Shown here one piece after another: positions 1 to 26,760 of a DNA stretch of 26,760 nucleotides. Origin of the DNA: a virus. The translations under genes were made by a program, and so were the position numbers. Positions within the stretch are counted from its first letter, which is position 1; each line of letters starts with the position of its first letter. The stretch lies in IMG/VR virus record IMGVR_UViG_3300025674_000311, positions 1 through 26,760 of that record. One strand, given 5' to 3'. Below the pieces are notes generated by a model that did no database searches, was not told the origin of the DNA, and was given only the letters and a program-made list of their open reading frames with translations.

Positions 1-131
1 GTAGGAAACTCAATCGGTTTTGGAGAGTCACCAGTAACCCATTCTCCAGAGTCATCCTTTGCCAAGATTTGTTCGGGGTAATCAGGCACCAACCAATTCG
101 TTTCTGTAATAAATTTCTTGAAAGATTTCAT
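1..131 (-). CDS. Partial protein with T4 internal-protein-like N-terminus
   Basis: Reading leftwards from an ATG at 131-129, 43 codons are open to the window edge, so the C-terminus is missing. A GGAGG ribosome site lies at 144-140, eight bases before the start. The protein begins MKSFKKFITE, which resembles the capsid-targeting leader of T4 internal protein I (MKTYQEFIAE), where the prohead protease cuts after a (I/L)-x-E motif; here that would be I-T-E at residues 8-10. The visible remainder is acidic and Pro-rich with no recognised domain. It is transcribed away from the rest of the window from a divergent late promoter. The function is unknown; capsid packaging is an inference from the leader. 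Confidence 0.6.
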   Translation of the reverse strand, partial: MKSFKKFITETNWLVPDYPEQILAKDDSGEWVTGDSPKPIEFP

Positions 132-148
132 TCTATATACCTCCGCAT

Positions 149-162
149 ATATTTATAAATAT
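149..162. promoter_or_regulatory. Divergent T4-type late promoter (overlapping TATAAATA boxes)
   Basis: The palindrome ATATTTATAAATAT holds an exact TATAAATA on the + strand (154-161) and another on the - strand (157-150). T4 late promoters use this box at about -13 to -6, recognised by gp55 with gp33 and the sliding clamp. With that spacing the leftward transcript would start near 144, exactly at the GGAGG of the leftward gene, and the rightward one near 167. The rightward leader contains a 7 bp inverted repeat (TGAAATG 173-179 with CATTTCA 206-212). Confidence 0.7.
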
Positions 163-1532: not shown

Positions 1533-1820
1533 ATGAAGACTTATCAAGAAATGATCGACAGCATCAATGAGAGAGACTACGCAAAAGAGTATAAGAGGTA
1601 TCATTCAAAGCCTGAACAGATTGCGCGAAGGTCTGCTCGAAACTCTGCTCGACGAATCATTCGTAAAACCATGACCGATGAAGATATTGAAGGAAAGGAT
1701 GTTCACCATAAGGACAATAATCCATTGAACAATGATAAATCAAATCTCTCTGTTGTGACACAGCACTACAATCGTAGGGAACCGAGATTGAGAGAACCAG
1801 AAGAAAACACGGGAGAGTGA
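1533..1820 (+). CDS. Small HNH-like protein with T4 IPI-like leader
   Basis: A 95-residue basic protein. Residues 57-81 carry the pattern DVHHKDNNPLNNDKSNLSVV followed by QHYNRR, that is the H-H...N-P-L-N-N...N-L core of HNH endonucleases in which the first His coordinates metal and the later Asn/His complete the motif. The N-terminus reads MKTYQEMIDSINE; its first six residues equal those of T4 internal protein I, and an I-x-E site occurs at 11-13. The gene follows the previous stop by one base. Small HNH proteins of this kind are common in phages and their substrate is usually unknown. Nuclease activity is likely but unproven; packaging is inference. Confidence 0.65.
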   Translation: MKTYQEMIDSINERDYAKEYKRYHSKPEQIARRSARNSARRIIRKTMTDEDIEGKDVHHKDNNPLNNDKSNLSVVTQHYNRREPRLREPEENTGE

Positions 1821-3951: not shown

Positions 3952-6411
3952 ATGTCCGTTTCTTTCAATACCGATTCCCTGCTCGATGATCGCGAACGTC
4001 GCGAAGTTCGGTTTGGTCGCAGCATCGTCAATCTTGAGTCGATCAATCAGCTTGCGAAGTTGCTTGCTCGCGAGGATCTTTCGATCGTTCACGATCCTGC
4101 TGCGAAGACTGCTTCGTTCACTCCTTCGACGCGCGTTCTGACTCTTCCTGCTTGGAACAATATTCCGAAGATTGTTTATCTTCTGTTTGCGGGTCACGAG
4201 ATCGGTCATGCTCTGTTTACTCCGGCTGATGGTTTCGATCATCCGTTGGTTCGCAAGGAGCTTCTCAATACTCCCTATATGGGACTCCTCAACATTGCCG
4301 AGGATGTTCGCATTGAGAAGCGTGTCAAGCGCAAGTACCCCGGTCTTCGCGCCGACTTTGCTGCTGGCTATGATCGGCTGTTTTCTGCTGGTTTCTTCGG
4401 TGTCGCTGCTGCCGATATTCCTGAACAGAATCTTGCCGATCGCCTGAACCTTCGGTTCAAGATGGGTTCTGCTGGTGCTGACATTATTCATTTCGCCGAT
4501 GGTGTCGAGACTGACTTCCTCAATCGAGGGTTCAATCTCGAATCGTTCGAGGATGCTGTTGTCTATGCCAACGATCTTTACGACTATCTTGTAGATCAGG
4601 AACAGCAAGAGAAGGAACAACAGCAGCAGAGTTCGCAGAGTGACGATGACTCCAACACTAGCGATGGCGACGAGTCCAACGATTCCGTTTCCAGCGCGAC
4701 TGATGAGTCTGGTGATGAGTCTGGTGAAAGTGCGGAGGCTTCTTCTGATTCTTCCGATGCTTCGTCTTCGGATAGTGACGATGCTTCGGGCGATGCCGAC
4801 GCTAATGCTGACGCTGACGCTGACGCTAATGCTGACGCTGACGCTGACGCTGACGCTGATGCCGACGCTGATGCCGACGCTAATGCTGATGCCGACGCTG
4901 ATGCCGAGTCGGATGCCGATGGTGAGGGTACTGCTTCCGGTGATGCTGGTAGCAGTAACGATGACGATTCGCCGTCGTTCGTCACTATCACCGACAATGC
5001 TTCGCGCGATGCGATGGATTCGTTGATTGATCGTAATGCCAAGGTTTCTCGTAATCTCAACATTCCTTTCGAGCGTGTCGATTGGAAGTCGATGATCGAC
5101 GATACTCTGGTCATTCTCGATCAGTTTGATGCTCACGTTGCCACTTCTCTTCATGACGCTGCCGCTTCACAGTTCTTTGCTGATCTTCGCGAGCAAACTA
5201 GTCGGTTCCTTTCGGCTTCCAAGCCGATCGTTTCTCAGCTTGCCAAAGAGTTTGAGATGCGTAAGGCTGCGGATCAGCATCGCCGATCGTCGGTGTCTCG
5301 GACTGGTTCTATCAATGTCGGTAAGCTCCATGCTTACCAGTACGAGGAGGATATTTTTCTTCGCAAGACGATGATGCCCGATGGCAAGAATCATGGCATG
5401 GTTATGTACCTCGATCTTTCGGGTTCGATGGTTCGTAATATGTCTGGTACGATTGACCAGTTGATTAACTTGGTCATGTTCTGTAAGCGAGTCCAGATTC
5501 CTTTCGAGGTTTACGGATTCAATGACGAGTTTCGTGTTGCGAATCGTGATGTCAATCATCCCTATGCTCTCAATGATGTTGTTGTTGATCCCGGTGCGTA
5601 TCTTCGCAAGTTTATTTCTTCGGAGTTGAAGCCGAAAGACTTCAAGCGCGCATTGGAATATCTCTTCTTCATGCGAGAGTATTGGCGAGTCTATACCTCA
5701 CGAGGCACAGATTCGACTGATTGGATGAGTAAGTATACTTACCTTCTTCGACCGATCAAGTCTGACTACCTCTGTTCGACACCTTTGGATGATACTCTGA
5801 TTTATGCCTATGGCATTCTTGATGATTTCAAGCGTCGAACTCGTGTTCAGATTTGTAACTTCATCATTCTTTCCGACGGCGGTTCCAATGCCATTCGACA
5901 ATGGAAGAACAGTCCTGATCGCGGCAGTCGCGAGTCTGTTGGTTATAATGGTTGCAATACGGAGGATCATTACTTCTACGACGAACACACCCGAACTCGT
6001 TTCAAGTCTGAGGGTCGCATGGATCACTCGACCGGCTTTCTCCTTGATTGCATCAAGGCGCGACTCGGTGGTATTCGCACGATCGGTTTCTATTTGATTC
6101 CGTTCTCTGGTGCCAAGACTCGTAGGATTGTTGCTAATGCTTATACTGACAATCGCGTCAGCGAAAATCTGACTGATGCTCAGTACGAAACCTTCAAGAA
6201 GGATGGTGTTATCGTTTCGTACAATGCTGGATACGATGCTCGCTTTCTTATCAAGGCTGGCAAGTCACTCGACTTTGATGACGGTGACATTCTCGATGGC
6301 GTCGCGGATAATGCTTCTTTGAGCAAGATTCGTACTGCCTTCAAGACTGGTTCCAAGAAGAAGGTTTCTTCTCGGGTCTTCATCAACAAGTTTGCGGAAA
6401 CTATTTCGTAA
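3952..6411 (+). CDS. HExxH-containing VWA-domain protein (CobT-like layout)
   Basis: An 819-residue protein in three parts. (1) N-terminal domain with HEIGH at 82-86 and NIAEDVRIEK at 114-123, the arrangement of a zinc metallopeptidase-like site (HExxH plus a downstream acidic ligand). (2) A Glu/Asp/Ser linker, about residues 205-325, including an (Asp-Ala)n tract. (3) A C-terminal VWA domain with the MIDAS motif DLSGS at 488-492 and a later acidic SDGGS at 641-645. VWA plus acidic linker recalls the CobT subunit of cobaltochelatase, and its neighbour is a CobS/MoxR-like ATPase. Such pairs act as AAA+ remodelling machines in which the VWA subunit recruits substrate through a metal ion. Cobalamin synthesis itself is unlikely, since no other pathway gene is present. 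The substrate is unknown. Confidence 0.8.
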   Translation: MSVSFNTDSLLDDRERREVRFGRSIVNLESINQLAKLLAREDLSIVHDPAAKTASFTPSTRVLTLPAWNNIPKIVYLLFAGHEIGHALFTPADGFDHPLVRKELLNTPYMGLLNIAEDVRIEKRVKRKYPGLRADFAAGYDRLFSAGFFGVAAADIPEQNLADRLNLRFKMGSAGADIIHFADGVETDFLNRGFNLESFEDAVVYANDLYDYLVDQEQQEKEQQQQSSQSDDDSNTSDGDESNDSVSSATDESGDESGESAEASSDSSDASSSDSDDASGDADANADADADANADADADADADADADADANADADADAESDADGEGTASGDAGSSNDDDSPSFVTITDNASRDAMDSLIDRNAKVSRNLNIPFERVDWKSMIDDTLVILDQFDAHVATSLHDAAASQFFADLREQTSRFLSASKPIVSQLAKEFEMRKAADQHRRSSVSRTGSINVGKLHAYQYEEDIFLRKTMMPDGKNHGMVMYLDLSGSMVRNMSGTIDQLINLVMFCKRVQIPFEVYGFNDEFRVANRDVNHPYALNDVVVDPGAYLRKFISSELKPKDFKRALEYLFFMREYWRVYTSRGTDSTDWMSKYTYLLRPIKSDYLCSTPLDDTLIYAYGILDDFKRRTRVQICNFIILSDGGSNAIRQWKNSPDRGSRESVGYNGCNTEDHYFYDEHTRTRFKSEGRMDHSTGFLLDCIKARLGGIRTIGFYLIPFSGAKTRRIVANAYTDNRVSENLTDAQYETFKKDGVIVSYNAGYDARFLIKAGKSLDFDDGDILDGVADNASLSKIRTAFKTGSKKKVSSRVFINKFAETIS
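4792..4914 (+). repeat. Six-base repeat encoding (Asp-Ala)n
   Basis: About 120 bases made of GCTGAC-like hexamers with GCTGAT, GCCGAC and GCTAAT variants, inside the acidic linker of the VWA gene. It encodes alternating Asp/Asn and Ala. Six is a multiple of three, so slippage would change linker length without a frameshift. The same repeat produces long open frames on the other strand that are not genes. Confidence 0.9.
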
Positions 6412-6458: not shown

Positions 6459-7706
6459 ATGTCTAATCGTCAGTCTCGTGCTACTGTTGCCGACAAGAAC
6501 AAGTTCATCGAGCTTGCTCGCAATGAGTTTGGTGACACCATTTCTCGTAAGGATGTTCTGCATCTTTGCGAGAAGCACGACCTTCCCACTCCGACTTGGT
6601 TGATGGGCGGCAAGTTTGCTGCTGGTCGCGGACTGTATGCTGTTCCTGCTGCGTTCGAGTCTGGTACTTCTGCTGCTGCTCCGAAGAAGAAGAAGGTTGC
6701 TCGCAAGAGCAAGAAGGCTGCTGCTCCGAAGGTTGCTGCTCCCGTTGTTGCCGATGCTCCGGCGTCTGCTTCTGCTGGTTCGGTTCGCTCTGGTCTGCTT
6801 GACAGTCTGGTTCCGAGCAAGTCGTCGAACTTTGTTCCGTTCGGTTCGTTCAACGACATTCACCAGATCATCGCTTCGGAGATGTTCTATCCGGTCTTCA
6901 TCACTGGTCTTTCTGGTAACGGCAAGACCTTCGGTGTCGAGCAGGCATGTGCCAAGGCTGATCGCGAGTGCGTTCGAGTCAATCTCACTATCGAGACTGA
7001 CGAGGACGATCTGATCGGCGGCTTCCGACTGGTCAACGGCGAGACTGTTTTCCAGAAGGGTCCGGTTGTCGAAGCGATGGAACGTGGTGCTGTTCTGCTC
7101 CTCGACGAGATTGATCTTGCTTCCAACAAGATCATGTGCCTTCAGCCGGTGCTTGAAGGCAAGCCGCTCTTCCTCAAGAAGATCGGTGAACTCGTCGAAC
7201 CTGCTGCTGGGTTCAACATCGTTGCTACTGCCAACACCAAGGGTAAGGGTGATGATGCTGGTCGCTTCATCGGAACGAATGTTCTGAACGAGGCGTTCCT
7301 TGAGCGGTTCCCGATCACGTTCGAGCAGGCTTATCCTTCGGTCACGATCGAGAAGAAGATCGTTGCCAAGGAACTCAAGCTCCTCGGTTCCGAGGACGAC
7401 GAGTTTGCTGCCAACCTTGTCAACTGGGCAGACACGATTCGCAAGACTTTCTTCGACGGTGGTGTCGATGAGATCATTGCTACTCGGCGTCTGATTCACA
7501 TTGCCAAGGCGTACTCGATCTTCGGTGATCGACTCAAGGCAGTCGAGCTTTGTGTCGCTCGCTTCGACGACGAGACGAAGGAGTCCTTCATCGACCTTTA
7601 CAAGAAGCTCGATGCGGAAGCCAACGCCACTACTGTCGAGGCTGCTGCTTCTGAAGCTGGATCGTCGGAAACGGTTTCCGATGGTGACACTCTCGCTCCG
7701 TTCTAA
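6459..7706 (+). CDS. MoxR/CobS-like AAA+ ATPase
   Basis: A 415-residue protein. Residues 1-50 contain a small helical domain (SRKDVLHLCEKHDLPTPTWL). Residues about 75-115 are an Ala/Lys/Pro-rich linker. The AAA+ core has Walker A GLSGNGKT at 150-157 and Walker B VLLLDEID at 212-219, and ATANTKGKG fits the sensor-1 region. The family resembles the phage gene often annotated cobS in T4-like cyanophages. MoxR-family ATPases work with VWA partners, and here the VWA gene is immediately upstream (47 bases), so the two probably form one complex. All Lys codons I could read are AAG, unlike most of the window. It is the last gene of its transcript before the tRNA cluster. Confidence 0.85.
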   Translation: MSNRQSRATVADKNKFIELARNEFGDTISRKDVLHLCEKHDLPTPTWLMGGKFAAGRGLYAVPAAFESGTSAAAPKKKKVARKSKKAAAPKVAAPVVADAPASASAGSVRSGLLDSLVPSKSSNFVPFGSFNDIHQIIASEMFYPVFITGLSGNGKTFGVEQACAKADRECVRVNLTIETDEDDLIGGFRLVNGETVFQKGPVVEAMERGAVLLLDEIDLASNKIMCLQPVLEGKPLFLKKIGELVEPAAGFNIVATANTKGKGDDAGRFIGTNVLNEAFLERFPITFEQAYPSVTIEKKIVAKELKLLGSEDDEFAANLVNWADTIRKTFFDGGVDEIIATRRLIHIAKAYSIFGDRLKAVELCVARFDDETKESFIDLYKKLDAEANATTVEAAASEAGSSETVSDGDTLAPF

Positions 7707-7728: not shown

Positions 7729-7805
7729 GCTCCCGTAACTCAGTCGGTTAGAGTGCCGTTCTTATAAAGCGGTGGTCGCGGGTTCGAGTCCCGCCGGGAG
7801 TACCA
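7729..7805 (+). tRNA. tRNA-Ile (anticodon UAU)
   Basis: A full cloverleaf of 77 bases: acceptor GCTCCCG with CGGGAGT (first pair G-U), D arm ACTC/GAGT, anticodon arm CCGTT-CTTATAA-AGCGG, T arm GCGGG-TTCGAGT-CCCGC, and encoded CCA. The loop gives anticodon TAT, reading AUA. Most bacteria read AUA with a CAU tRNA modified to lysidine, so a UAU tRNA is noteworthy. Confidence 0.93.
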
Positions 7806-7818
7806 TTCATTTTTTTGT

Positions 7819-7841
7819 CGCTACTATCACGCGCCTAACAT
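7819..7841 (+). repeat. Leader element, copy 1
   Basis: CGCTACTATCAC-GCGCCTAACAT lies 19 bases before the ATG at 7860. A second copy at 12070-12090 is identical except for lacking two bases (GC) in the middle. Both lie just upstream of short genes, which suggests a shared regulatory or binding sequence. Confidence 0.6.
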
Positions 7842-7859
7842 CTTCGGAGTTTTGATTAT

Positions 7860-8225
7860 ATGCCCGGTTCTTTTATTGAAACTAAATATGATGGAATCGA
7901 CGTTTCTCGTCCGGTAGGCAAAACGAATCTTCCCTCAAAGCACATGTATTTTGTGGGTGATCGTCGCGCTTTGTTTCTTCGATTTGAATCCTCTCGACCA
8001 ACGCGAAATTCTTACAGCGTATTCAAGTTTGTCGATGAGGATGGTAATTTGTTTATTTGTTTCTCAGACCACATTGAGTTCAACAAAGATCCGATCGAGC
8101 CGGGAAACTGTTATATTTTGAATGCTACCATCAAGCGTCATTCTCATAATGCTTATGAGAATATTGAGGAAACTCATATCAATCGAATCAAGGTTCTGAA
8201 GTGCCTTGGCAAAAAGGATAAGTAG
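7860..8225 (+). CDS. Unknown small beta-rich protein
   Basis: A 121-residue protein with GGAG at 7846-7849 before its ATG. Residues 28-95 alternate short hydrophobic strands and turns (YSVFKFVDEDGNLFICFS, NCYILNATIKRH), compatible with an OB-like or other small beta barrel, followed by a basic C-terminus. It heads a run of four small genes between tRNA-Ile and tRNA-Thr. It could bind nucleic acid, but no diagnostic residues are visible and I do not recognise the family. Confidence 0.7.
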   Translation: MPGSFIETKYDGIDVSRPVGKTNLPSKHMYFVGDRRALFLRFESSRPTRNSYSVFKFVDEDGNLFICFSDHIEFNKDPIEPGNCYILNATIKRHSHNAYENIEETHINRIKVLKCLGKKDK

Positions 8226-8227
8226 TA

Positions 8228-8410
8228 ATGGAATCGCATATTAAATACATTGTTGAGAAAACGATCAATCGTATTGATTCTGAATTTAGTGTTTTGTCTG
8301 ATGAAGTTGTTGACGAAAAAACGAGTCAACTGATTGGTCACATTCACCTTTTGATTTCTTGTCTTTTGGAAGACATGGATCGGGAGCTTGAAATTGTTGG
8401 AGGGTATTGA
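8228..8410 (+). CDS. Small acidic helical protein, unknown
   Basis: A 60-residue ORF beginning two bases after the previous stop, with AAAGGA upstream. It is Glu/Asp-rich and almost entirely helical by composition. The next gene's GTG start lies one base after its stop, and that gene's ribosome site sits inside its last codons, so the two are translationally coupled. No function can be assigned. Confidence 0.6.
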   Translation: MESHIKYIVEKTINRIDSEFSVLSDEVVDEKTSQLIGHIHLLISCLLEDMDRELEIVGGY

Positions 8411-8411
8411 A

Positions 8412-8615
8412 GTGAAGAATGAGATTATTGTTGAGTTACTTTCTCCGGTAGATGATATTTTGTCGGAGCTTTCTCTTGATAAGAATAGTAAGGTCAAGTT
8501 GGAGTTGGCATTGAACAAGGTTCGATCGAACCTGAATGACCTTTTCAGTGATATGTTCGACGCAGACGATCCGTATGCTTTCATGGTAGGAGAAGATGAC
8601 TACGATGATTTCTGA
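8412..8615 (+). CDS. Small acidic protein, GTG start
   Basis: A 67-residue protein. The same frame is open further upstream from a TTG at 8388, but GGAGGG at 8399-8404 is seven bases before GTG 8412, so I chose the GTG. Residues 1-50 look helical with a heptad-like pattern; the C-terminus is very acidic with aromatic residues (MVGEDDYDDF), a tail type seen in single-stranded-DNA-binding proteins and DNA mimics. Its last 20 bases overlap the next gene in another frame. The function is unknown. Confidence 0.6.
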   Translation: MKNEIIVELLSPVDDILSELSLDKNSKVKLELALNKVRSNLNDLFSDMFDADDPYAFMVGEDDYDDF

Positions 8616-8922
8616 CGAAAACGAACTCGATGATATTTACATGGCAGCGCATGGTCGTTTCCTTGATGACATTGGGTTGACGTTTCGTGATTCAGTTATA
8701 TTGGAATCATCGAGTTACGGTTACTCTTCTGATGATGTTGCTGCGATTGCCAACACACTCGAACTTCAATATGATCGCGAGAGATTTCAATACCTTCACG
8801 AGAATGTTCTTTGTGAATCTTTGGATGAAGATGTTTTGAATGAGTTTTTGAATAGTTCGCCACTCGATAGATTGCTTCGCATCAGCGAGTTGGTTGAACG
8901 TATTCAAGACATGGACCCCTAG
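8596..8922 (+). CDS. Acidic helical protein, unknown
   Basis: A 108-residue protein overlapping the previous gene by 20 bases. Start choice is uncertain: AGGAG at 8588-8592 is three bases before ATG 8596 (short) and twelve before ATG 8605 (long). The protein is acidic, mostly helical and lacks Cys clusters or a signal. It ends ten bases before tRNA-Thr. No family is recognised; co-location suggests a role shared with the three small genes before it. Confidence 0.65.
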   Translation: MTTMISDENELDDIYMAAHGRFLDDIGLTFRDSVILESSSYGYSSDDVAAIANTLELQYDRERFQYLHENVLCESLDEDVLNEFLNSSPLDRLLRISELVERIQDMDP

Positions 8923-8932
8923 CTCAATTTAA

Positions 8933-9008
8933 GCCGACTTAGCTCAGATGGAAGAGCGCGATACTTGTAATATCGAAGTCGTCGGTTCGATTCCGACAGT
9001 CGGCTCCA
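8933..9008 (+). tRNA. tRNA-Thr (anticodon UGU)
   Basis: A 76-base cloverleaf: acceptor GCCGACT with AGTCGGC, anticodon arm CGATA-CTTGTAA-TATCG giving TGT, T arm GTCGG-TTCGATT-CCGAC, discriminator T and encoded CCA. It reads ACA and by wobble other ACN codons. Confidence 0.95.
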
Positions 9009-9159
9009 TTTTGATTATCTGTAACCACTGTGCGGAAACCGCTGGTCTGCGCCAGTCCCGGACGCTCGTCACGGCGGAGCCGGTTAGGGCGAGGTAGCAG
9101 TAAGGACCGCCAACAGAAGATGCCGCCTCTGTGACGAGAGGCGGGGACTTCGTTTTTAC
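9009..9159 (+). other. Structured GC-rich spacer between tRNA-Thr and tRNA-Arg
   Basis: A 150-base gap with no ORF, clearly GC-richer than its neighbours. CTCGTCAC (9065-9072) can pair over eight bases with GTGACGAG (9131-9138). Alternatively CCGCCTCT (9123-9130) pairs with AGAGGCGG (9137-9144), with five T bases a few bases further on. The two pairings compete for the same bases. It begins with a 34-base repeat also found at 10496. It may be a small RNA, a processing spacer or the remains of lost tRNA genes. Confidence 0.5.
9027..9060 (+). repeat. 34-base direct repeat, copy 1 (tRNA-Leu 3' half-like)
   Basis: Identical over 34 bases to 10496-10529. It contains GCGG-AAA-CCGC and CTGG...CCAG inverted repeats. 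It resembles the variable arm and T arm of the tRNA-Leu at 9638-9724 with a deletion, and lacks the acceptor end here. Confidence 0.8.
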
Positions 9160-9236
9160 GCACTCGTAGCTCAGTTGGATAGAGCGGTTGCCTTCTAAGC
9201 AACGGGTCGCAGGTTCGAGTCCTGCCGGGTGCGCCA
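9160..9236 (+). tRNA. tRNA-Arg (anticodon UCU)
   Basis: A 77-base cloverleaf: acceptor GCACTCG with CGGGTGC, anticodon arm GTTGC-CTTCTAA-GCAAC giving TCT, T arm GCAGG-TTCGAGT-CCTGC, discriminator G and encoded CCA. It reads AGA and AGG, codons usually rare in GC-rich hosts. Confidence 0.95.
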
Positions 9237-9267
9237 TTTCTTAAAAAAGGAAAAAGGAAATTTGAAT

Positions 9268-9435
9268 ATGACGATGGGATTAGTTCCGAGGAAAACTTCA
9301 CAAATCGGATCTTTGAATTTTGACGTTGAAAAGATCAACAATGGCTACTTATGTCATCACGAATCAGACACATGGTTTTTTCCAAACAAGGAAGACCTAG
9401 TAAAGTATATCACTGATTTGATCGAAGAGATTTGA
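9268..9435 (+). CDS. Small protein, unknown
   Basis: A 55-residue ORF. AAAAAGGAAA upstream supports ATG 9268 (an in-frame ATG at 9274 is also possible). The sequence has a WFF aromatic cluster and ends with an acidic helix (DLVKYITDLIEEI). Its TGA is directly followed by the ATG of the next small gene, so both probably form a coupled pair between tRNA-Arg and tRNA-Lys. The function is unknown. Confidence 0.55.
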   Translation: MTMGLVPRKTSQIGSLNFDVEKINNGYLCHHESDTWFFPNKEDLVKYITDLIEEI

Positions 9436-9540
9436 ATGACAACTTTAGAGAAAATGTTTTGGGGTCTGATAACCGCAGTGATCGTAACAGCATGGTCGCT
9501 GCGTCTTGTTGGGGTGTTTCCGATATTCACAGTTTGGTAG
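9436..9540 (+). CDS. 34-residue single-span membrane peptide
   Basis: A short ORF starting at the base after the previous stop, with GAAGAGA upstream. Residues about 8-32 are one continuous hydrophobic helix with aromatic ends (MFWGLITAVIV...VGVFPIFTVW), so it is a small inner-membrane peptide. Phages use such peptides as holin-like or host-inhibiting factors, but nothing here specifies which. Confidence 0.5.
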   Translation: MTTLEKMFWGLITAVIVTAWSLRLVGVFPIFTVW

Positions 9541-9552
9541 CAGATATTTGAT

Positions 9553-9629
9553 GGGCTCGTAGCTCAATTGGTTAGAGCAAGAGGCTTTTAACCTCTAGGT
9601 TCTCGGTTCGATTCCGAGCGGGCTCTCCA
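9553..9629 (+). tRNA. tRNA-Lys (anticodon UUU)
   Basis: A 77-base cloverleaf: acceptor GGGCTCG with CGGGCTC (two G-U pairs), anticodon arm AGAGG-CTTTTAA-CCTCT giving TTT, T arm CTCGG-TTCGATT-CCGAG, discriminator T and encoded CCA. It reads AAA and AAG. Confidence 0.94.
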
Positions 9630-9637
9630 TTTCATTT

Positions 9638-9724
9638 GCCGGGTTGGTGGAATTGGTATACACAGAAGACTTAAAATCTTCCGACCGCAAGGTCTTGCGG
9701 GTTCGAGTCCCGCACCCGGCACCA
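9638..9724 (+). tRNA. tRNA-Leu (anticodon UAA)
   Basis: An 87-base type II tRNA with acceptor GCCGGGT/ACCCGGC, anticodon arm GAAGA-CTTAAAA-TCTTC giving TAA, a long variable arm (CCGACCGCAAGGTCTT region), T arm GCGGG-TTCGAGT-CCCGC and encoded CCA. It reads UUA. It lies eight bases after tRNA-Lys, and fragments like its 3' half recur at 9027 and 10496. Confidence 0.95.
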
Positions 9725-9760
9725 TTATTTTGATAGTAAATAGTGAAAGGAATAATAATA

Positions 9761-10309
9761 ATGAAGACTTATAGTCGCGATGAACTGGAAGAAATTCTCA
9801 GGCTGCACGAACTCTGGGTCAATCGAAAGAAAGGCGGCAAACGCGCGGACCTGATCGGCGCGAACCTGACTGGCGCGTACCTGCGCGGAGCGTACCTGCG
9901 CGGAGCGAAGCTGACCGGCGCGAACCTGCGCTGGGCGGACCTGAACTGCGCGTTCCTGCCCGGCGCGAACCTGACCGGCGCGGACCTTATCGACGCGAGC
10001 ATGACTAGCGCAAACCTGTTTTGCGCGTCTCTGGTCGGCGCGACGTTGCGCCGCGCAAAACTGACCGACGCGAACCTGCGCTGGGCGAACCTGACCGACG
10101 CGAACCTGCGCTGGGCGAACCTGACCGACGCGGACCTGAGCAACGCGAACCTTCGCGGCGCGTATCTGGACGGCGCGGAACTGTTCGGCGCGGAACTGTT
10201 CGGCGCGGACCTGTTCGGCGCGGATCTTCGCAGCGCGGATCTTCGCAGCGCGGATTTGTCTGACGCAAACCTGACCGACGCTCTACTCGACGAGCGCACT
10301 AAGTTTTAG
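9761..10309 (+). CDS. Pentapeptide-repeat protein
   Basis: A 182-residue protein. I use ATG 9761 because AAAGGA at 9746-9751 is correctly spaced; a GTG at 9743 would include the ribosome site. Residues 1-32 are a helical N-terminus with a basic patch (NRKKGGKR). From about 35 to 175 the protein is made of A(D/N/Y)LxG-type pentapeptides, roughly 28 of them, which fold as a right-handed quadrilateral beta-helix. Some family members mimic DNA and protect topoisomerase, but most have no known role. The DNA is much richer in GC than its neighbours and uses GCG and CTG almost exclusively. Exact tandem copies (30 bases near 10069-10128, 15 bases near 10224-10253) indicate growth by duplication and recent transfer. 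Confidence 0.85.
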   Translation: MKTYSRDELEEILRLHELWVNRKKGGKRADLIGANLTGAYLRGAYLRGAKLTGANLRWADLNCAFLPGANLTGADLIDASMTSANLFCASLVGATLRRAKLTDANLRWANLTDANLRWANLTDADLSNANLRGAYLDGAELFGAELFGADLFGADLRSADLRSADLSDANLTDALLDERTKF

Positions 10310-10311
10310 AA

Positions 10312-10491
10312 ATGGCAAAAAGAAATAAGTATCTTCTTCGTCACGCTTGTTCTGCATGTAAAGCATCTGTCTACTTCTGCGAAGACCCAGCGTGCAGATG
10401 CTTCCATCACGCATTCGACACGTTCGATGAGTACGAACACGAGCGAACGAGCTGCAAAATCGAAGATGTGGTAGAGATTTTTACTAAGTGA
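10312..10491 (+). CDS. Small Cys/His-rich protein, possible zinc-binding
   Basis: A 59-residue ORF starting two bases after the pentapeptide gene stop, so translation may be coupled. It holds CSAC (13-16), then CEDPACRCFHH, giving six or more Cys and several His in the first 40 residues, as in small zinc-binding proteins, although the spacing does not match a named finger. The C-terminus is acidic. It ends just before the repeat with tRNA-Leu remnants. The function is unknown. Confidence 0.5.
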   Translation: MAKRNKYLLRHACSACKASVYFCEDPACRCFHHAFDTFDEYEHERTSCKIEDVVEIFTK

Positions 10492-10495
10492 AACT

Positions 10496-10541
10496 ACTGT
10501 GCGGAAACCGCTGGTCTGCGCCAGTCCCGCACCCGGCACCA
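10496..10541 (+). pseudogene. 34-base repeat copy 2 joined to a tRNA-Leu 3' end (tRNA remnant)
   Basis: 10496-10529 equals 9027-9060. The run from 10523 (GTCCCGCACCCGGCACCA) continues exactly as the T-arm and acceptor end of the tRNA-Leu at 9638-9724, including CCA. Upstream, ACCGC-TGGTC-TGCG aligns with the tRNA-Leu variable arm ACCGC-AAGGTCTTGCG. No 5' half is present, so it cannot be a working tRNA. It is best explained as a decayed or recombined tRNA-Leu copy. Confidence 0.65.
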
Positions 10542-10561
10542 TTTTTAACCGTTGTCATTAG

Positions 10562-10684
10562 GGGGCTCCTCTTGACCCAAATGAGTGGTAGCATTTGGCT
10601 GATGGGAAAAGATGAATAATGATGAGCCCCGCGTTGTCTCCTCCGGGTTAGCGTTTGCCTATCATTAATCTTTTCCACTACCAC
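10562..10684 (+). ncRNA. Putative pseudoknotted structured RNA in the tRNA cluster
   Basis: No ORF or tRNA is present, but several helices are evident. P1 is GGGGCTC (10562-10568) with GAGCCCC (10624-10630). P2 is the hairpin CCAAATG (10577-10583) with CATTTGG (10592-10598). P3 is GGAAAAGAT (10605-10613) with ATCTTTTCC (10668-10676), stacked on P4, AATGAT (10618-10623) with ATCATT (10661-10666). P1 crosses P3/P4, an H-type pseudoknot. The P2 loop GTGGTAG (10585-10591) is complementary to CTACCAC (10678-10684), a second crossing contact. Six T bases follow, then tRNA-Pro. T4 also keeps small stable RNAs (species 1 and 2) in its tRNA cluster. No known class was matched; the topology differs from HDV-like and tmRNA folds. 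Confidence 0.6.
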
Positions 10685-10694
10685 ATTTTTTATA

Positions 10695-10771
10695 CGGGGA
10701 TTAGCTCAGTCTGGTAGAGTGTTCGCTTTGGGAGCGAAAGGTCGTAGGTTCAACTCCTACATCCCCGACCA
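10695..10771 (+). tRNA. tRNA-Pro (anticodon UGG)
   Basis: A 77-base cloverleaf: acceptor CGGGGAT with ATCCCCG, starting with C1 as bacterial tRNA-Pro does, anticodon arm TTCGC-TTTGGGA-GCGAA giving TGG, T arm GTAGG-TTCAACT-CCTAC and encoded CCA. It reads CCA and by wobble CCG. Confidence 0.95.
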
Positions 10772-25023: not shown

Positions 25024-25446
25024 ATGGAAAACGCGAAAGTATTAGAGATACTTGCTGACATTGCTCGTGACCTTGATCGAGACATGAATCGTACTGGTGC
25101 GAGACATGCTGCGGCAATCGTATATAAAAATCAAATCATATCCTACGGGGTAAATCAGAAGAAGTCACACCCGTTTCATTCTCGTTTTTCGGAGCATGAT
25201 GATGCCATCTTTCTACACGCAGAGACAGATGCCATCAAGAATGCTTTGAGACAGATTTCCGAGGATGATATGGAAAAGGCAACTCTGTATGTTTGCCGTG
25301 TAAAGTATGATTCTAATGGACCGGGAAAGAAACTGACATGGGGTAACTCGAAACCTTGTATCGGCTGTCAGCGCGCCATTGCTAACTTTGGTATAAAGGA
25401 CGTTATTTATTCAAATGATGGCGACGGAAACCACTCTCTCTTATAA
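25024..25446 (+). CDS. CMP/dCMP-deaminase-family protein
   Basis: A 140-residue protein from ATG 25024. The zinc deaminase signature is HAE at 65-67 and PCxxC at 111-115 (PCIGC), with GARHAAAIVYKNQIISYGVN as the opening strands. Enzymes of this fold deaminate dCMP, cytidine or related bases; T4-type dCMP deaminase supplies dUMP for dTMP, which would fit the dUTPase here. The protein is shorter than T4 Cd (193) and the substrate cannot be fixed. No ribosome site precedes the ATG, which lies directly after a terminator. The frame is open upstream from a TTG at 24964, but that would run through the terminator stem. Confidence 0.85.
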   Translation: MENAKVLEILADIARDLDRDMNRTGARHAAAIVYKNQIISYGVNQKKSHPFHSRFSEHDDAIFLHAETDAIKNALRQISEDDMEKATLYVCRVKYDSNGPGKKLTWGNSKPCIGCQRAIANFGIKDVIYSNDGDGNHSLL

Positions 25447-25449
25447 ATA
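25442..25449 (+). promoter_or_regulatory. T4-type late promoter TATAAATA
   Basis: An exact late box overlapping the last codons of the deaminase-like gene (25442-25449). The predicted start is near 25455, giving a 27-base leader with GGGGGGAG before ATG 25482. It marks the return to late genes. Confidence 0.7.
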
Positions 25450-25481: not shown

Positions 25482-26519
25482 ATGGCAACGCTGTCTATAA
25501 ATGAATTAAGAAAGCGTGATAATTTTGTAAAGTTTCGTACAAAAATCGTAAATAAGGAAGATTTTTGTATGCCGGGAGATGGAACTTGTTATAAGATTGG
25601 TTATAAAAAAACAACCGAACATAACAAATTTATTAAATCTCTTTTTGGTAGTTCTTCTGGGGGGACATTGGCTAAGCTGGAAAAATGGTATGCAAATGCT
25701 AAAGGGTTTCCTGCCTATTACGGAAGTAAACAAATATCTGTAACGTGGTCAAATATACATAAAGATTCATCTTTTGGTGGAAGGCAAACAACAGGAACCG
25801 AAAAAGAGGATATACAATTAGCTAGATTAATTAAACTCATAAATGAAGCCAAAGATGAAATTGGTGAGGACAGTATTAGTATTAAATTCAAAACAAAAAC
25901 TTGGCGAGGTATAGCTGGAGCAGAGTCCACGCCGGGAACTCCAAAATCTGATTTTCATTTAACTGATGTTAATGGAAATGCTAAGGTTTTTATTTCACAT
26001 AAAGATGGTAAGGGTGTCAAAGCATTTGGGCAATGGGGTGGTATTACTAAACAAGCCGATGGAAAGAATCCAGCAGATCGAGGTGTTATAAGTGAGGATA
26101 AAGAAGTTTTGGATTTTGTTGAGGCAATTAAGGCTAGATTTCCTGTAGGTAGTCAATTTCCAAAGGGTGTTACACTTGCCCGAAAGATTAAATCAAGAAA
26201 CTTAAAAAATCGTGCTGTTTATGGTCCTTCTTATAAGTCCGGCGCAAAAGGAAGTATAGATAATTGTGATATGCTTCTACAAGGAACTATTGATTTAAAA
26301 AGGGTTGGAAATACTAAAACTTTTGTAATTTCAGCAGATGGTTCTGAGCATTTAAATGGAGACGCTATGACAGGTCAAGCAGCTCCGACATTGATGGTGA
26401 TGTTTAAGGGAGTTAATAGAAAAGATTTTGGTATTATCGGGGCAAGGTTTAGTATTTATCCACTTGGTGGTAGAGCAAATATATTAGAACCCTGGCCAGA
26501 TGATATGAGGGCAAAGTAA
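25482..26519 (+). CDS. Putative PD-(D/E)XK-like nuclease-fold protein
   Basis: A 345-residue protein. TPGTPKSDFHLTDVNG followed by KVFISHKDGK (about 150-176) has the spacing of a PD-(D/E)XK core: P-K-S-D, a turn, then a beta strand ending in S-H-K in place of E-x-K. AFGQWGGI follows. An N-terminal region (1-125) and a C-terminal region rich in glycine and aromatic residues have no known motif. DNA here is clearly more AT-rich in third positions (AAA, GTT, ATT) than the replication genes, suggesting a different origin. It is driven by a late promoter. Nuclease function is a hypothesis from one motif; a structural protein is the main alternative. Confidence 0.6.
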   Translation: MATLSINELRKRDNFVKFRTKIVNKEDFCMPGDGTCYKIGYKKTTEHNKFIKSLFGSSSGGTLAKLEKWYANAKGFPAYYGSKQISVTWSNIHKDSSFGGRQTTGTEKEDIQLARLIKLINEAKDEIGEDSISIKFKTKTWRGIAGAESTPGTPKSDFHLTDVNGNAKVFISHKDGKGVKAFGQWGGITKQADGKNPADRGVISEDKEVLDFVEAIKARFPVGSQFPKGVTLARKIKSRNLKNRAVYGPSYKSGAKGSIDNCDMLLQGTIDLKRVGNTKTFVISADGSEHLNGDAMTGQAAPTLMVMFKGVNRKDFGIIGARFSIYPLGGRANILEPWPDDMRAK

Positions 26520-26525
26520 TAAATC

Positions 26526-26760
26526 ATGCAAACATTCATACAATACTTGACAGAAGACGCGAATAAAAATCTACATCTTGAACATCTTGAAGACTTGATG
26601 TTTCTGTACGGTATTGATGGTATGCGTTCTGGTATCAACTTCGTTCGTTCTATTCGAGACATGCTTGTCGGAAAATCCAAGAAGAAAGTTGATCTACATG
26701 TAAAATGGGATGGTGCCCCTGCTATATTTGCCGGAACCGATCCTGAAGATGGAAAGTTTT
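26526..26760 (+). CDS. Partial protein with IPI-like leader and ligase-like KxDG motif
   Basis: 78 codons are visible; the gene runs off the right edge. It starts MQTFIQYLTE, again like the T4 internal-protein leader with an L-x-E site at 8-10. At 60-63 it has KWDG in HVKWDGAPAIFAG, matching motif I (K-x-D-G) of covalent nucleotidyltransferases such as DNA and RNA ligases, where Lys takes the AMP. A family of T4-like phage proteins with KWDGAPA exists (annotated DUF6267 as I recall). No ribosome site stronger than GAGGG is visible. Ligase activity is unproven. Confidence 0.65.
   Translation, partial: MQTFIQYLTEDANKNLHLEHLEDLMFLYGIDGMRSGINFVRSIRDMLVGKSKKKVDLHVKWDGAPAIFAGTDPEDGKF

Follow-up and report, generated by a model that had tools for sequence, protein, structure and literature searches.

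Capsid-targeting leaders predict enzyme-like head cargo in a T4-like phage fragment

Which proteins does a T4-like phage carry inside its head, and can they be recognized from their N-termini? The question is raised by a 26.8-kb viral fragment (IMGVR_UViG_3300025674_000311, positions 1-26,760; hereafter the window, meaning the whole stretch of 26,760 nucleotides that was analyzed), in which three proteins begin with a short leader resembling the capsid-targeting sequence (CTS) of T4. As described in PMC9026906, the T4 internal proteins IPII and IPIII are located in the interior of the head and their leader binds the scaffold core. Residues 4 and 7 of the CTS matter for targeting, and residues 8 and 10 for its removal by gp21 (PMC9026906; also PMC3012670). 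Foreign proteins, a nuclease included, are packaged and ejected when they carry just the first 10 residues of IPIII, and the idea that T4-like phages may use the CTS for varied proteins is already found in the same source (PMC9026906). The leader class itself is known from T4, and the interesting part is the breadth of the enzyme cargo.

The window comes from a T4-like phage, with clamp loader, RegA, DNA polymerase and dCMP deaminase-like genes (open reading frames identified by inspection). Its leader proteins, called (a), (b) and (c), and their surroundings are listed here.

1-131, minus strand: N-terminal 43 residues of leader protein (a), whose gene runs off the window edge
102-131, minus strand: leader codons of (a), MKSFKKFITE, predicted cut after E10 (between E and T); matches T4 CTS positions 4, 7, 8 and 10 as given in PMC9026906
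150-157, minus strand: T4-type late promoter TATAAATA, 19 bases ahead of gene (a)
154-161, plus strand: T4-type late promoter TATAAATA before the gene run 228-1820, which ends in (b)
1533-1820, plus strand: HNH nuclease-like leader protein (b), 95 residues; Pfam HNH_3, phrog_4590; weak best match of the HNH core to I-HmuI (1u3e)
1533-1571, plus strand: leader codons of (b), MKTYQEMIDSINE, predicted cut between E13 and R14; podophage homologues begin at R14, and variants with their own start end in E there, except L017
1689-1778, plus strand: HNH core of (b), residues 53-82 (Pfam)
25442-25449, plus strand: T4-type late promoter TATAAATA before the gene pair 25482-26526
25482-26519, plus strand: 345-residue neighbour upstream of (c), phrog_13937, without leader, homologue of AAY80_065 of phage DLP6
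26526-26760, plus strand: N-terminal 78 residues of the DUF6267 ligase-like leader protein (c), whose gene is cut by the window end
26526-26555, plus strand: leader codons of (c), MQTFIQYLTE, predicted cut after E10 (between E and D)
26703-26714, plus strand: KWDG, putative nucleotidyltransferase motif I of (c), residues 60-63, with invariant K, D and G

An earlier note on this DNA had likened the N-termini at 131-1 (minus strand), 1533 and 26526 (both plus strand) to T4 internal protein I. The three N-termini do resemble the T4 CTS, but the sequence quoted for comparison, MKTYQEFIAE, is the start of IPII and IPIII, while IPI begins with MKTFKEFTSTTTPVSTITE. The I/L-x-E site that the note placed at the end of each leader stands, with cuts predicted after E10, E13 and E10. 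The key residues are F4, F7, I8 and E10 in (a), Y4, M7, I11 and E13 in (b), and F4, Y7, L8 and E10 in (c). All three leaders thus follow a rule of about 10-19 residues in which positions 4 and 7 are aromatic or hydrophobic, P3 is hydrophobic and P1 is Glu, (b) having Met at position 7; the strict form of the leader is matched by only two of the three. Because of this Met and of its longer spacing, the leader of (b) is the weakest. For protein (a), a tblastn search with the 43-residue fragment gave only matches with E of 0.1 or more. One relative nevertheless shares its body (PDYPxQ...GDxxxGDSPK) and starts with MVISFKKYLNE (G007:46807-47112), and L191, with MKSFKEFLKEEFPPFSLPDYPMQ, is more distantly related.

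In AT-rich phages, short charged or aromatic N-termini are frequent, and one might thus attribute the likeness of the leaders to chance or low complexity, with no shared function. The motif is indeed short, and its strict form is absent from one of the window leaders. To quantify this, we used a leader regular expression on 1,566 called genes of eleven T4-like sequences (T4, Melnitz, eight IMG/VR contigs and the window). The search for the leader among phage proteins, which the earlier note had suggested, returned 12 matching N-termini of 1,566, against an expectation of 0.18 when residues 2-13 are shuffled (mean; maximum of 3 in 2,000 shufflings) or 0.47 when internal methionines are used. 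The expression was generalized from T4 and other sequences that had been inspected beforehand, and HNH or DUF6267 homologues led to the genomes; leaving out T4 IPII and IPIII, the window hit and a single DUF6267 hit, 8 of the 12 matches remain. The probability of two strict matches within one 47-gene window is 1e-5 to 1e-4. A homology-blind scan of IMG/VR DNA for MK[ST]FKxFhxE, which ignores downstream sequence, gave at least 83 matches. Among the matches listed, 44 are clean N-termini, i.e., a first ATG with a ribosome-binding-like site and an open frame. For comparison, a permuted control pattern gave 1 clean N-terminus in 34 across the whole IMG/VR collection, a control that is cruder than these numbers suggest because its hits are largely one repeated stretch. 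We also considered an effect of A-rich codons on translation initiation as the cause of the motif, and rejected it because the conserved features are at the protein level and the spacing is variable. The excess of matches, the near absence of the permuted pattern from real N-termini and the evidence from domain boundaries and proteomes given below make a chance resemblance barely credible.

If the leader is an address, it should be separable from the protein that carries it. Protein (b) is informative in this respect. The HNH core pointed out in the earlier note is backed at the level of family and motif by a Pfam HNH_3 match (PF13392) with E=3e-6, above cut-off, and the block DVHHKD..NPLNND, in keeping with the conserved metal-site residues expected of an HNH core, is invariant or nearly so among its relatives. 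Among solved structures I-HmuI comes closest to the core, though weakly (not significant by Foldseek alone), and the mature body is basic, with a pI of 9.6. Six marine podophages, five of them annotated as Autographiviridae, have an HNH homologue without leader that starts with M(x)R[DN]Y, which corresponds to residue 14 of (b). Hence, the start of the podophage proteins coincides in 6 of 6 cases with the predicted cut between E13 and R14. The S77 protease was absent from the one genome of this group that was tested, HTVC025P. Conversely, T4-like relatives with their own start have the leaders MKTYQELAAGLKE, MKTFRKLSKELEE, MKKFKDLYSQLKE, MKGFKTFLE and MQTFIE, each with a final Glu ahead of R[DN]Y, except for L017, which lacks a leader. 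In other relatives the HNH domain is the C-terminal part of larger proteins with leader-like N-termini. Together with the cyanophage DUF6267 proteins that start after the leader (see below), these boundaries indicate that the leader is a separable module, which HNH lineages gain or lose exactly at the domain boundary.

A different reading accepts the leader on DUF6267 and on (a), and takes the HNH protein for a selfish or packaging-related nuclease whose N-terminus is merely leader-like. Leader (b) breaks the 10-residue rule, with Met7 and a predicted cut after residue 13; T4-like phages often carry HNH homing endonucleases as free-standing genes (T4 has five mob genes); and the podophage homologues adjoin scaffolding and capsid genes, a position that would suit a factor for packaging or assembly, the HNH gene following the scaffolding gene in 4 of 6. 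However, the T4 IPI leader is even longer and a length of 10-19 residues is accepted for propeptides, the relatives with their own start retain MK[TS][FY]...[LI]-x-E up to R14, the larger proteins with a C-terminal HNH also have leader-like N-termini, and Pfam and PHROG searches found no homing-type DNA-binding domain in (b). We therefore regard this exception for the HNH protein as unlikely. In the marine T7-like phages HTVC025P, HTVC011P, Gjalp and KM23-C739 (L169, L373-L375), the small HNH gene lies between a scaffolding gene (before) and a capsid gene (after).

Proteins of the T4 capsid-targeting class are expected to go with T4-type capsid machinery. An S77 protease, a gp20 portal or gp23 was found on 10 of 23 contigs with the leader and on 0 of 8 contigs with the control pattern (Fisher p=0.03). 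The window is a fragment without that region, but the relatives with close homologues of (b) (G003, G006 and G007) have S77, gp22 and gp23. By inspection, an L-x-E followed by Ser, Ala or Thr lies close to the T4 cut position in the propeptides of the major capsid protein (MCP) of these three relatives, of Melnitz and of others. The leaders, their modularity, the pattern at the cut sites and the T4-type capsid genes of the relatives can all be read directly from the sequences. Independently of this, the small leader proteins of L170, L218 and L228 continue with xPTNSV, like the mature gp23 of Melnitz just past its predicted cut.

Internal head proteins are expected to be transcribed late. The T4-type late promoter TATAAATA occurs 6 times against 0.6 expected (consensus match only), and three of the sites, at 150-157 (minus strand), 154-161 (plus strand) and 25442-25449 (plus strand), would provide such transcription. 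The claim that all three leader genes lie in late-promoter regions holds directly for (a), which has the promoter immediately ahead, and less so for (b) and (c), which are downstream of late promoters but not directly behind them, since they are reached through upstream genes. Elsewhere in the window, an Asp-Ala repeat tract (4800-4920) is found within an 819-residue open reading frame (3952-6411) that adjoins one for a CobS-like ATPase (6459-7706). Six tRNA genes (Ile, Thr, Arg, Lys, Leu, Pro) are packed in 3 kb (7729-10771), a stretch that also holds a pentapeptide-repeat-like open reading frame (9743-10309).

Protein (c) belongs to DUF6267 (PF19782; E=5e-20, match from residue 15), a family of unknown function, and its near-identical relatives are 414 residues long. 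In the phage collection, the Methylophilales phages Melnitz (Kyanoviridae) have the nearest DUF6267. Most relatives have leaders of varied length that end in [hydrophobic]-x-E ahead of the family domain, whereas those of the cyanophages S-SM1 and S-CRM01 lack one (orthologues checked), so that packaging of this family would be lineage-specific. The ligase-like KxDG seen earlier is the KWDG at residues 60-63, and is sustained at the level of motif and family, the fold match being weak. Across 19 DUF6267 sequences, K60-x-D62-G63, Q129-G-D131, E381-G-x-V384 and K394..D397-R398 are invariant, in the motif order of the ligase superfamily. The QGD, EGxV and KxxDR blocks we take to be ligase motifs III-V, an equation that is not a residue-by-residue alignment. 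The AlphaFold model (pLDDT 83, low in the leader region) aligns to RNA and DNA ligases with Z of 5-6.2 over 160-190 residues, where Z under 8 is weak and non-ligase helical hits reach 7. Foldseek gave E above 0.03 with low probabilities, which is not significant, and a DUF6267 profile searched against PDB sequences gave no ligase match, only spurious hits. Given the weak Z among helical hits and the Foldseek result, the ligase fold is only suggestive and the motif evidence is stronger. T4 Rnl2 and Naegleria RNA ligase share KxDG, QGD, EGxV and KxxDR with DUF6267, and the model aligns to their nucleotidyltransferase domain; the differences are an identity of about 10%, the lack of a sequence-profile match and a long helical insertion (residues 227-361). 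Hence, the motifs and the weak fold match suggest that (c) is a ligase-type nucleotidyltransferase. A DUF6267 candidate among virion proteins, S-SCSM1_90, was rejected, as it has no Pfam match.

Are proteins with such leaders found in virions? In S-CREM2, 52 proteins were detected in CsCl-purified virions (PMC10665884, Table 3). The motif M[KRQ]x[FYLW]xx[FYLMW][ILVMF]xE, whose K/R/Q form was fixed after inspecting the sequences, is found in 5 of these 52 and in 0 of the 167 undetected proteins (p=6e-4). The five are the SAM hydrolase gp6 (SAM lyase family), gp13, the kinase gp14, gp136 and the cytidylyltransferase gp154. Dropping the K/R/Q condition gives 5/52 versus 1/167 (p=0.003), and a much looser leader expression gives 5/52 versus 7/167, which is not significant (p=0.16); the result therefore depends on a motif that specifies residues 4, 7, 8 and 10. 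The cytidylyltransferase of S-SM1, detected in virions (PMC3037559), starts with MKKFSAFLNE, and the NMNAT of S-SCSM1, also detected (PMC9602691), with MKSFLQFLKE. The latter phage gives weak support, since the virion flag is given to only one of its two annotated leader proteins and not to SSCSM1_30. The authors of the S-CREM2 (PMC10665884) and S-SCSM1 (PMC9602691) studies name carry-over as a possible source of such enzymes, and cargo versus contamination is left unsettled in these papers. The leader offers a simple sequence test and a mechanism, and its presence on enzymes detected in cyanophage virions argues for real cargo over carry-over. In the cyanophage papers searched, no capsid-targeting sequence was mentioned.

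The published virion lists of S-CREM2 and S-SCSM1 do not tell head from tail, and the motif might accordingly be an assembly signal for the neck, baseplate or tail. Against this, the closest characterized proteins, T4 IPII and IPIII, are in the head interior and their leader binds the scaffold core, the cut site of the leader is that of the MCP propeptide in the relatives, and the cargo families are enzymes rather than tail parts. We consider a destination outside the head interior highly improbable.

Packaging in the head is the reading that we prefer, and we are fairly confident that all three window proteins are leader-tagged head cargo of a T4-like phage, cut by the prohead protease and ejected with the DNA. 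We infer their targeting, cleavage, injection and enzymatic activity as follows. The three proteins would be made late, each with an N-terminal T4-type CTS, which would bind a scaffolding core of the gp22 type so that the protein is enclosed in the prohead. An S77 prohead protease of the gp21 type would then remove the leader after Glu10 in (a), Glu13 in (b) and Glu10 in (c), freeing the small basic HNH nuclease-like protein, a 45-kDa ligase-type nucleotidyltransferase (pI 9.6) and the third protein. These would stay with the packaged DNA and be ejected along with it; nicking or sealing of nucleic acid, counter-defence and breakdown of host DNA are candidate roles in the host. The head loading predicted in the earlier note agrees with the tests made here on sequences and published proteomes, i.e., the enrichment at true N-termini, the gain and loss at domain boundaries, the T4 capsid genes, the L-x-E site of the MCP and the virion-detected enzymes with leaders.

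As a prediction, it is well supported that the window proteins join the T4 capsid-targeting class as new members. They share with IPII and IPIII, as described in PMC9026906 and PMC3012670, the N-terminal rule (aromatic residues 4 and 7, a hydrophobic residue 8 and Glu10), together with a late expression signal, basic mature proteins and, in the window's relatives, a T4-type scaffold and S77 protease. They differ in their bodies: the T4 internal proteins are small and IPI inhibits a restriction enzyme, whereas the window bodies are HNH-like and 45-kDa ligase-like, and we saw no resemblance to the T4 proteins. The ADP-ribosyltransferase Alt of T4 is also a head-carried enzyme with an N-terminus trimmed by gp21 and is ejected into the host, but it is an unrelated enzyme with a very short leader, MELITE, and its C-terminus is trimmed too, as described in PMC9026906. 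The enzymes reported in virions of Kyanoviridae (S-CREM2, S-SM1, S-SCSM1 and S-CRM01: cytidylyltransferase/NMNAT, kinase, SAM hydrolase) have the leader in common with the window proteins, and differ in belonging to enzyme families other than HNH and DUF6267; the leader is not mentioned in the consulted text of their papers.

How broad is the cargo? Among the matches listed from the homology-blind scan, there are 49 non-redundant leader proteins. The Pfam family that occurs most often in them is DUF6267 (4 proteins); DUF6321, SAM lyase and cytidylyltransferase have 2 each, and HD, HicA toxin, lytic transglycosylase and methyltransferase 1 each. In G003:1644-7604 and G006:10645-22697, inspection revealed apparent cargo islands of about seven consecutive or near-consecutive leader-like genes, including one for an HNH protein, most of them of unknown function. 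The relatives and the published proteomes of particles point to enzyme loading via such leaders in many T4-like phages. We lean towards a general address tag that unrelated genes acquire and lose, so that each T4-like phage has a changing set of head-packaged enzymes delivered with the DNA, in other words an effector-delivery system that can be read from sequence. With similarly modest confidence, we would place in this set HNH nucleases, DUF6267 proteins, SAM lyases, cytidylyltransferases, kinases, HD hydrolases and HicA-type toxins. If true, genomes and metagenomes could serve to draw up lists of the proteins that T4-like phages inject, and the window's nuclease-like and ligase-like proteins would be concrete candidates for takeover in the first minute or for counter-defence.

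Some individual proteins deserve mention. The leader proteins at L208:12007-12630 and L224:1226-1783 have bodies like a HicA mRNA-interferase toxin and a RelA/SpoT-type HD hydrolase, by reading of the sequence; the Pfam tally holds one HicA and one HD_4 member, and their link to these two loci was likewise made by reading. In S-SCSM1, the 69-residue protein S-SCSM1_93 (L369:6547-6756), flagged as virion, has a leader-like KRTFKEFLEYIE at its C-terminus. Finally, T4 itself has a 54-residue hypothetical protein, gp61.1 (NC_000866, 18966-19130; locus L162), that starts with MKTFKEFIKE, a full capsid-targeting motif. This makes it a candidate for a further internal protein, absent, as far as shown, from the table of head proteins in PMC9026906.
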